DNA of 64,000 nucleotides. It comes from Beijerinckiaceae bacterium. Lineage in GTDB: Bacteria > Pseudomonadota > Alphaproteobacteria > Rhizobiales > Beijerinckiaceae. Of the stretch, positions 43,136 to 45,914 are shown piece by piece. The stretch's first letter is position 1, and each line of letters starts with the position of its first letter. A model generated the notes under the pieces. That model was not told the DNA's origin. It did no database searches and saw nothing but the letters and a program-made list of their open reading frames with translations. The position numbers and the translations under genes were made by a program. The stretch covers positions 62,001-126,000 of the forward strand of contig CANGFT010000004.1 in the NCBI GenBank assembly GCA_947453205.1, written 5' to 3'.

Positions 43136-43795
43136 TCAAGACTTCGCCGCCATGGCCTGAAACAGATTGCCCATGGCGCCGGGCAGCAGCAGCTTCGACT
43201 GAACCGCGGCCTGTTGCTGGGGGGTGAGATAAACAAGTTGCGCGGCCTTCAAGGCGGCGCCCTGCGCCTGCGTGAGGGCCGCGAGCTGGCTCGTGGTCAT
43301 CGCGCTGAACGTGGTCGCCGAGAGCGCGTTCAGCTGCGCGCGGGTGAGATAAGGGATATTCGCGGGCGCGATCTTGGACACTTGAGCTTTGCTGAAGGCG
43401 CCGACCTGCGCGCTCGTCAGCGCCGCGATCTGGGTCGAGCTGAAGGCGCCGATCTGATCGGCTGTCAGGCCCTTGATGGCGGCGGGCGGGATGGCGGCGA
43501 CCTGTTCGCCGCTCAACGCCTGGAGCTGGCTGATCGGCATGTCGGCCATTTGCTGGGGCGAATAAGCCTTGAGCTGGGCGATGGTCGGGGCCGAGGCGCC
43601 GCTGACCGAAGCTTTGTAGGCGGCGGCCGCCTGCGCGGAAATGGAGACCTGAACGGCGGAGGTCGACTTGGCGGCGCTTGATGCGGCGCCCGACTTGGTC
43701 GAAACGGATGCGCCGACCGGAGCAGGCGCGGTCGTCTGCTTCGATCCGGAGTTTGAACCGGAATTCAGGTTGGTGCTGAGATTGCTGATCGTCAT
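43136..43795 (-). CDS. Uncharacterised octapeptide-repeat protein (16 gapless 8-residue repeats)
   Basis: AQLKAYSP QQMADMPI SQLQALSG EQVAAIPP AAIKGLTA DQIGAFSS TQIAALTS AQVGAFSK AQVSKIAP ANIPYLTR AQLNALSA TTFSAMTT SQLAALTQ AQGAALKA AQLVYLTP QQQAAVQS after a Ser/Thr/Ala-rich N-terminus; start at MTISNLST. Confidence 0.8.
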   Translation of the reverse strand: MTISNLSTNLNSGSNSGSKQTTAPAPVGASVSTKSGAASSAAKSTSAVQVSISAQAAAAYKASVSGASAPTIAQLKAYSPQQMADMPISQLQALSGEQVAAIPPAAIKGLTADQIGAFSSTQIAALTSAQVGAFSKAQVSKIAPANIPYLTRAQLNALSATTFSAMTTSQLAALTQAQGAALKAAQLVYLTPQQQAAVQSKLLLPGAMGNLFQAMAAKS

Positions 43796-43919
43796 AGGCG
43801 CCTCTTTGAAGCGCCGCAGCAAATCTCATGCCTACCGCTCGGCCCAGAGGATCACATCGGCGGACAGGTCGCCATGCTGCTCGTCGGGGGGCGTGCACGG
43901 GGCTTGCTCGCCTTCAGCG

Positions 43920-45566
43920 TCATCTGGCGGGCGCTCGCTCGAGGCTGACGGCGTTTCCTGCGCGCACCTCGACTGCGATGCGCGCCAGGATCTCCAGCTT
44001 TTCTGCGCGCGACAATTGGTCGATATGGCTGAGCAGGGCGTCGAAATCGCTGAAGCTGAGGCTCTGGGCCGCAGGATTCGGCACGGCTTCAGCGGGCGGC
44101 GGGGGCTTGGGTTTGGATGACTGCGGCTGCGCCTTTTGGGCGGGCGCCTGCCCGCTCAATAGCCGGGACTCCTCCTGCAGGCGGCGGTAGGCTTCGATCT
44201 CCTCACGCTCAAGCTCAGCCTCGCGATACCGCCCAAGGCCCATGGCGGCGGCCTGCAGCTTCAATTCGACCCGCTCGGCGTCGGTGAGGTCGCCATCGCG
44301 AACCCTCGCGTCGACCAGCGCCTTGAATTGCGCGGAGCGCTCCTGCATCTTCTGCTGAAAGCCGGTCGCCAGAATGCCCGCAGGCAAGGCGACGAGGCCA
44401 AGACCCATCAGCGAAATGATCATGGTCACGAATTTGCCCAGCGACGTCACGGGCGTGATGTCGCCATAGCCCACGCTGAGCAAGGTGATGATGGCCCAGT
44501 AGGTCGCTTCAGGGATGCTCGAGAATTTGTCAGGCTGGGCTTCGTGCTCGACGAGATAGATGATGCTGGCGGCGAAGATCGTCACGGTGAGCGTGGTGAA
44601 GAATGCGGCGCTGAGCGCGGGCGCCTGTTCGCTCACCACCTCCATCAGCGTGGTCATCGCCGTGGAGTAGCGTGTGAACTTGAGCAGGCGCAGAAGCCGG
44701 AAGGCCCGCAAAAAGCGCAGGTCCATCGCGACGACGAAGCTGAGATAGAACGGAAGGATGGACAGGAGGTCGATCAGGGCTATCGGCGTCGCCATATAGC
44801 GCAAACGCTCCATCCAGCCCTCGCCAAAGGCTTTGTCTTCCGGGCAGGACCAGACGCGTGCGACATATTCCAGCGTGAAGACGGCCACGGTGAAATAATC
44901 GAAATAGCGGAATTGCTGCTGCAATGGCGTATGGATCGACTCCACCGTCTCCAGCATGACGGCGGCGACGGACAGAAAGATCAGCTTGCCCATCAGGAGA
45001 TCGAAGACTTCATTCAGACGGCCTGAATATCGGTCGGCGTTAAGCGCGCTATAGACCTTCTGCCGGAAGGTGCGCCTGGCGTTCAGCTTGCGGAATTCGA
45101 TCCAGATGGGACGCAGGCTGCGCGTGATCTTGACAAGGCGCACCAGACGCAGAAAGCGCAGATCGACGACGGCCTCAAGCGGAATGAAGAAGGGCAGGAT
45201 GACCACAAGATCAAGCAAGGCCATCGGCGATGACAGATAGCGCAGGGTGGGCAGGCGCTTGTCCTTGTAGCGGCGCTGCAAGCCCCCGCTCAGCGCGCGC
45301 AACACATATTCGATCACGAAGATCGCGATCGTGACATCGTCCAGGATGCTGAGGATCGCGAGGACGCTCACGTCGAGGGGAATCGTATGTTCGAGCAGAA
45401 GCGACAAAAGGCTGACGACGATGGCCACATTGACGATGTGATTGGCGTAGAGGCTCGGCGCATGACGGGGATTGTCGACGAACAAGGCAAGATGCAGCTT
45501 GCGTCGAAACGTCAGGAATTGTCGGTCCCGCAGCGCCTTCGCCGACTTGCCCATGATCGCCCCCAC
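43920..45566 (-). CDS. Predicted voltage-gated K+ channel with two tandem voltage-sensor domains and one pore
   Basis: Two S3-S4 blocks: RYLSSPMALLDLVVILPFFIPLEAVVDLRFLRLVRLVKITR and RYMATPIALIDLLSILPFYLSFVVAMDLRFLRAFRLLRLLKFTR; selectivity filter TLLSVGYGDITP; TM-rich. Confidence 0.88.
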   Translation of the reverse strand: MGAIMGKSAKALRDRQFLTFRRKLHLALFVDNPRHAPSLYANHIVNVAIVVSLLSLLLEHTIPLDVSVLAILSILDDVTIAIFVIEYVLRALSGGLQRRYKDKRLPTLRYLSSPMALLDLVVILPFFIPLEAVVDLRFLRLVRLVKITRSLRPIWIEFRKLNARRTFRQKVYSALNADRYSGRLNEVFDLLMGKLIFLSVAAVMLETVESIHTPLQQQFRYFDYFTVAVFTLEYVARVWSCPEDKAFGEGWMERLRYMATPIALIDLLSILPFYLSFVVAMDLRFLRAFRLLRLLKFTRYSTAMTTLMEVVSEQAPALSAAFFTTLTVTIFAASIIYLVEHEAQPDKFSSIPEATYWAIITLLSVGYGDITPVTSLGKFVTMIISLMGLGLVALPAGILATGFQQKMQERSAQFKALVDARVRDGDLTDAERVELKLQAAAMGLGRYREAELEREEIEAYRRLQEESRLLSGQAPAQKAQPQSSKPKPPPPAEAVPNPAAQSLSFSDFDALLSHIDQLSRAEKLEILARIAVEVRAGNAVSLERAPAR

Positions 45567-45569
45567 GAC

Positions 45570-45914
45570 CTAGCGCGCGCGCCGCCCCGTGACCTCGCAT
45601 TCATCCGTCCGCTTCCCGCCATTGGCGAAGTGATAGGTGATCGAGGCTGTGAAACGATAGACGAAAGTATAGTCCCATCCCCTGTTGCCGAGCGTGCCCA
45701 GAATGGTGACGACGCCATTTTCGCTCTTGAGATTGCGGATATGGAACTGGGACGCATTGCCATCGATGATCGAGACGAGGCTCGGCGGATCATCATCATA
45801 CCTGAGTTCATAGGTGCGGGGCCCGTCCTTGCAGGTCATCAGGAGCACGGTCGCGTGAGCCGTGGAGGCCGCAAGGCCGGCGAGGATCGTTGCGAGGCGA
45901 AGAAACAAGCGCAT
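45570..45914 (-). CDS. Small secreted protein of unknown function
   Basis: 114 aa, signal peptide MRLFLRLATILAGLAASTAHA; stop 3 bp upstream of the channel ORF start. Confidence 0.65.
   Translation of the reverse strand: MRLFLRLATILAGLAASTAHATVLLMTCKDGPRTYELRYDDDPPSLVSIIDGNASQFHIRNLKSENGVVTILGTLGNRGWDYTFVYRFTASITYHFANGGKRTDECEVTGRRAR

Follow-up and report, generated by a model that had tools for sequence, protein, structure and literature searches.

The locus examined here raises the question of what a protein built around a gapless run of eight-residue repeats is, and what it does for the bacterium that encodes it. The window, a 64,000-nucleotide stretch of a Beijerinckiaceae genome (contig CANGFT010000004.1, positions 62,001 to 126,000), contains the ORF at 43136–43795 on the minus strand, which starts with the ATG at 43795 and encodes 219 amino acids plus a stop. 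Translation, Pfam and orthologs mark it as a short-form ALTTAQ (PF20080) octad-repeat coding sequence. Five orthologous ORFs in other genome records (L066–L070) share 45–67% identity. The whole-ORF pN/pS ratio is 0.27–0.34 between near ortholog pairs; the most distant pair tested gives 0.56 for the whole ORF and 0.21 for the first 20 codons. In several relatives the neighbour of the ORF is a TctC-like gene or a small conserved one (a homologue of 45570–45914). Judging by the orthologous ORFs, the purifying selection and the synteny, this ORF is a real gene. One ortholog, L068, comes from a metagenome-assembled genome labelled Comamonadaceae, yet it is close to the Beijerinckiaceae loci, which suggests that its contig was misbinned or transferred.

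The repeat array covers codons 73–200 (43196–43579, minus strand), 128 residues in strict eight-residue register without insertion. The original prediction of 16 gapless octads from AQLKAYSP to QQQAAVQS was borne out by a periodicity analysis, in which the column information of the octads reached 17.6 bits as compared to 11.6 ± 0.5 bits in 10,000 shuffles (z = 12.7; shuffle maximum 13.6). Position 2 is Gln in 13 of the 16 units, position 5 is Ala and position 7 Ser or Thr in 11 each, and positions 3 and 6 are mostly Leu, Ile, Val, Met or Phe. This column composition bears out the predicted consensus x-Q-[ILV]-x-[AG]-[LFI]-[ST]-x, and the pattern [ST]-x-x-Q-[ILV]-x-x-[LF] is present in tandem. 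Across the six sequences, 13 of 16 octads keep an invariant Gln as their second residue, with the other positions more variable. Tandem Repeats Finder detected no repeat in the array DNA, so the periodicity exists at the protein level only and a DNA-level minisatellite can be excluded. The lack of a repeat at the DNA level implies that the array is old and maintained by selection on the protein.

The suggestion that these octads belong to no named repeat family did not survive. The product matches Pfam PF20080 (ALTTAQ repeat, ALTTAQ_rpt) with 55.1 bits against a curated cut-off of 26.4 (E 5.7e-15), the very kind of hit that the prediction itself had listed first as evidence against it. Five of the six orthologs match the same family at E ≤ 0.01. 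The octad repeat is common to the family and the ORF product, whereas the short length and the conserved N-terminus are particular to the latter; this protein is a short, 16-octad form of PF20080 with a conserved N-terminus of its own. An NCBIfam profile search of the product returned no family, and a literature search found no paper describing a function of ALTTAQ or PF20080. Several other origins were tried and rejected. A phage origin found no match in 50,697 phage records, and a PHROG search gave one weak match (E 6e-4) to a PHROG with no assigned function. The BFVD structures contained no match at E ≤ 0.001. Matches to internalin and VLR leucine-rich-repeat profiles (E 0.004 and worse) were attributed to Leu periodicity.

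The genome of the window holds five ALTTAQ loci, namely the 16-octad form and four larger ORFs of 611, 696, 1013 and 1370 amino acids, two of which are cut by contig ends. ALTTAQ is common in the window's own genus, occurs in only 5 of 288 other genomes of a class-wide sample, and is also found on plasmids of Rhizobium, Shinella, Cereibacter, Pseudomonas and others. The genome of Caulobacter vibrioides, used as a control, has a PF20080 match too. Across the family, larger paralogs reach 2000–3000 amino acids, and many begin in a similar N-terminal style.

How might the octads fold? AlphaFold2 modelling of the repeat region, a check proposed in the original prediction, returned a confident structure with periodic eight-residue geometry. 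With the six aligned sequences, the mean pLDDT was 90–96 over most of the array and about 85 in the last two octads; the model consists of sixteen short helices, one per octad, of 4–6 residues each (8 in the last) with short turns between them. From the single sequence a similar screw was obtained with pLDDT about 90–96 for residues about 71–170 (about 12–13 octads), and confidence dropped over the last octads. The proposal that each octad forms a short helix plus a turn, stacked into a thin superhelix, is thus matched by the alignment-based model and for the most part by the single-sequence model. The beta-solenoid offered as an alternative finds no counterpart, since neither model contains a beta strand.

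The closest solved sequence is PDB 9ZEM, "HeliScrew4", a 120-residue chain (phmmer E 4.6e-12; profile match E 1.7e-19 over 107 residues). Its octads follow the pattern of the ORF product (LTPEQIAAL), although HeliScrew4 is apparently an artificial protein, whereas the ORF is a natural, regulated gene. A 2025 preprint describes a "tightly wound alpha-helical screw", derived from random repeats, as a new super-secondary structure, and reports a crystal structure and CD (PMC12822642). To go by the name only, 9ZEM is apparently this screw; a literature search for HeliScrew by name found no paper. Foldseek gave no PDB match at E ≤ 0.001 in a library reaching to April 2026, with 9ZEM absent from the results. 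Foldseek and VIA-align returned weak matches to mesothelin and armadillo proteins, with a best VIA-align Z of 7.2, which is within the chance range for repeat folds. Those proteins share with our model a superhelix of short helices, but their repeats are longer, irregular and unrelated in sequence to the octads. Such weak structural matches are not evidence that the screw fold is new. A thin alpha-helical screw as the fold of the 16 octads is well supported by the predictions together with a related crystal structure.

The segments outside the array differ sharply in conservation. Codons 1–20 (MTISNLSTNLNSGSNSGSKQ; 43736–43795, minus strand) contain 14 of 20 positions that are invariant among the six orthologs and show the strongest purifying selection (pN/pS 0.00–0.10 in near pairs). 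AlphaFold2 predicts this segment to be disordered (pLDDT about 43). The N-terminus is low in charge and rich in Ser, Thr and Asn, and inspection of the first 20 residues revealed no hydrophobic (Sec) signal or hydrophobic core. A conserved, apparently disordered N-terminus without a Sec signal is necessary, not sufficient, for a flagellar type III export substrate; we propose that it may serve as the export signal. It is followed by a variable Ser/Thr/Ala linker at codons 21–47 (43655–43735, minus strand; 1 of 27 positions invariant, pLDDT about 40). Codons 48–63 (43607–43654, minus strand) carry the conserved motif VxVSISxxAxAAYxAS, invariant at 9 of 16 positions, which in the AlphaFold2 model runs into a helix at 54–64. 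The earlier description of the N-terminus as a Ser/Thr/Ala-rich linker is therefore incomplete, in that residues 1–20 and 48–63 are more conserved than the repeats. Behind the array, codons 201–219 (43139–43195, minus strand) form in the model a C-terminal helix (205–218) of moderate confidence (pLDDT 64–69), probably a cap.

Motifs like VxVSISxxAxAAYxAS also occur in ALTTAQ paralogs and in a product encoded at 89.1 kb of contig C8. On this contig (genome G000, at about 89.2 kb), L147:1719-3500 encodes a protein of at least 594 amino acids with a sigma54 site upstream and no Pfam match, the N-terminus of which is ALTTAQ-like (MTVSSVSG...VTISSQAKALA) and the repeats of which are different. Comparison with the ALTTAQ proteins suggests a shared N-terminal module joined to exchangeable bodies.

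To see how the gene may be controlled, we aligned the 260 bases 5′ of the start codons of the six short-form loci. Apart from the ribosome-binding site (AAAGAGGC; 43800–43807, minus strand), conserved in all six, and one main block, GGCA[CT]-N5-TTGCT, present in six of six, the upstream regions are divergent. From the consensus GG-N10-GC we take this block to be a sigma54-type −24/−12 element. In the window it reads GGCATGAGATTTGCT (43818–43832, minus strand), and the predicted element ends about 22 nt 5′ of the ATG (22–25 nt across the six loci). The genome encodes one sigma54 gene. The pattern GGCAYNNNNNTTGCW matches 17 times in the 4.2-Mb genome of the window versus 7 times for the reversed control. 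Chance alone would account for about 40% of these matches, and unrelated genes follow some of them; a given 70-nt upstream region would hold a site with a probability of about 1.4e-4. Six of the 17 sites are on contig C1, before flgB, flgF, flhA (FHIPEP), flgE, fliK and an LPP20 lipoprotein gene, within a large flagellar cluster in which a sigma54-activator-like protein is encoded as well. Another precedes the ORF studied here, one is located 36 nt before the start of the ALTTAQ paralog C32, and one belongs to the gene on contig C8 for the protein of at least 594 amino acids described above.

Relatives show a comparable arrangement. Upstream of the short form, the motif is present in G016, G028, G033 and G036, and upstream of larger ALTTAQ genes it is present in G028, G033 and G046; G033 and G016 contain further sites clustered on one contig, as they are in the flagellar cluster of the window genome. 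It is absent from the larger ALTTAQ genes on Rhizobium and Shinella plasmids. Flagellin genes themselves mostly lack the motif, with a clean site at one of 16 N-terminal flagellin matches in the genus, so the link of the ORF is to the hook, rod and export genes. Late flagellar genes of the alphaproteobacterium Caulobacter are driven by sigma54 together with FlbD (PMC3096577). The resemblance to that regulon consists in a GG-N10-GC promoter that the ORF shares with rod, hook, fliK and flhA genes. To our knowledge, no ALTTAQ protein has been described in the late flagellar regulon of Caulobacter. The assignment of the ORF to a sigma54 flagellar regulon is well supported at the sequence level, by a conserved motif shared with flagellar genes and paralogs, by the relatives and by the Caulobacter precedent. 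As a separate observation, a sigma54-type site also lies 24 nt upstream of a gene for a 444-aa multi-EF-hand protein (L151:264-1598, on G000 contig C22 at about 12 kb).

Genomic context provides a second link to flagella. A divergently transcribed flagellin gene adjoins the short-form ORF in L068 and L070. The corresponding place in L069 holds the decayed start of such a gene (MTVINTNTGSLCARQAMTTNACGL..., minus strand, about 400–700), so that a flagellin gene or relic adjoins the short form in three of six loci. Among 61 related genomes, 15 of the 16 with ALTTAQ are flagellin-positive versus 26 of the 45 without it (Fisher p 0.007, kinship ignored). In the class-wide sample all five ALTTAQ genomes are flagellin-positive, and the pooled count is 20 of 21 (p 7e-4, shared ancestry ignored). 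The one ALTTAQ genome in which no flagellin was found, G023, is 76% complete. Since many flagellated relatives lack ALTTAQ, the family is not essential for flagella. On plasmids, ALTTAQ genes lie near flagellin and flgE (Pseudorhizobium), adjoin flhA, fliQ, fliE and flgC (Rhodovastum) or follow a flgE homologue (Rhizobium sp. 11515TR); those of Shinella have no flagellar neighbours within the stretch read.

The copy in the window has no adjoining flagellar gene, its upstream neighbour being an ion channel gene. An operon with this channel was discarded as an explanation because the upstream gene differs among relatives (a DoxX-like gene by eye, or flagellin). The channel itself (43920–45566, minus strand) is a 548-aa protein with two Ion_trans stretches. 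By reading of its sequence, an extra N-terminal S1–S4-like unit (RFLRLVRLVKITRSL) precedes a full voltage-gated K-channel unit with one pore (SVGYGD); a single pore alongside two sensor-like units would be an unusual combination.

The larger family members have a partner of a different kind. A gene for a TPR plus GT41 glycosyltransferase protein adjoins the ALTTAQ array or lies within a few kb of it in eight relatives, in three of five class-level genomes and at six of 16 plasmid loci. In the relatives, 8 of 26 GT41 genes are adjacent to ALTTAQ; a rough model of uniform placement puts the probability of this by chance at about 4e-9. Giant ALTTAQ genes are directly followed by TPR-GT41 genes at L056:2-6279, L059:7157-18108, L061:8643-16714, L063:4501-9113, L126:5554-15663 and L129:7507-13204. 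In Caulobacter, the TPR-plus-glycosyltransferase protein FlmG glycosylates flagellins (PMC7591256). The enzymes encoded beside the giant ALTTAQ genes match this architecture, but the FlmG-like gene adjoins those giants and not the gene in the window. GT41 is not supported as a partner of the short form either, since the short-form carriers G028 (83% complete) and G033 (90% complete) gave no GT41 match. Type I secretion genes are found near ALTTAQ on a Pseudomonas plasmid and in G026. At another locus (L060:11385-13534, G005 contig C76), an autotransporter beta-domain gene and a gene with a weak Flagellin_IN match lie beside a 1066-aa ALTTAQ gene.

Taken jointly, these data make it reasonably probable that the ORF encodes a sigma54-driven, flagellar-regulon ALTTAQ screw that is most likely a flagellar type III export substrate with a role as a rod. 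The repeat, the family, the conserved promoter, its sharing with flagellar genes and the co-occurrence with flagella are observed. We infer the export through the flagellar channel and the rod role, and picture them as follows. The ORF would be transcribed from its sigma54 promoter along with rod, hook and export-apparatus genes, and the protein would be made while the flagellum is under construction and most likely leave through the type III channel. The first 20 disordered residues would be the export signal, and residues 48–66 a second targeting or junction element. Each octad, in which Gln occupies position 2 almost invariantly and hydrophobic residues occupy positions 3 and 6, would contribute a short helix and a turn to a screw that may act as a stiff rod, either joined to the flagellum or released from it.

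The leading alternative is a cytoplasmic factor for flagellar assembly within the same regulon, a scaffold, chaperone or timing factor that is never exported and that binds a flagellar partner with its N-terminus. The sigma54 promoter and the flagellin linkage fit such a factor equally well. Peptide binding is frequent among alpha-solenoid folds in general, and the weak resemblance to armadillo and mesothelin, chance-range as it is, points the same way. We nevertheless regard a cytoplasmic role as unlikely: a disordered N-terminus that is conserved above the fold resembles a secretion signal more than a binding helix, and paralogs of 2000–3000 residues, many with a similar start, would be atypical of chaperones. 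The conservation of the N-terminus above the repeats thus favours export and is no proof of it.

If the protein does leave the cell, it might instead do so by type I secretion or another route, as a surface or secreted glycoprotein or adhesin with octad Ser/Thr residues O-glycosylated by a GT41 enzyme; the giant ALTTAQ proteins may be of this kind. The TPR-GT41 genes beside ALTTAQ in relatives, class-level genomes and plasmid loci, the type I secretion genes near ALTTAQ on the Pseudomonas plasmid and in G026 and the Ser or Thr at position 7 in 11 of 16 octads are consistent with such a protein. We consider it quite improbable for the short form, the promoter and neighbours of which indicate flagella and which has neither GT41 nor type I genes nearby, in addition to the two carriers without a GT41 match. 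It would be more surprising still if sigma54 controlled the ORF within a non-flagellar regulon and the flagellin linkage were incidental. Some motif matches in the genome do precede non-flagellar genes, but six of 17 belong to the flagellar cluster, one contig of G033 carries a comparable series of sites, and both the flagellin adjacency at three loci and the co-occurrence across genomes are independent of the motif.

PF20080 was already known as a catalogued repeat family. New here are the placement in a flagellar regulon and the association of the giant relatives with GT41, as well as the likelihood that the screw fold occurs in nature. With its sigma54 and flagellar links, the ALTTAQ short form becomes open to testing as a flagellar component; for the giant forms, the pairing with GT41 suggests an extracellular polymer that is modified. 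More tentatively, and with some doubt on our side, ALTTAQ proteins could constitute a new class of flagellum-exported structural proteins in which modular export N-termini precede a screw of variable length, from 16 to several hundred octads, that forms a rod or fibre in many Proteobacteria; a dedicated FlmG-like enzyme would O-glycosylate the giant forms. If this is true, the fold that the preprint presents as new would be a widespread natural building material. As the structure predictions stand, the alpha-helical screw is very probably already present in natural, conserved and regulated genes, and a natural screw bears on how short repeats became proteins.
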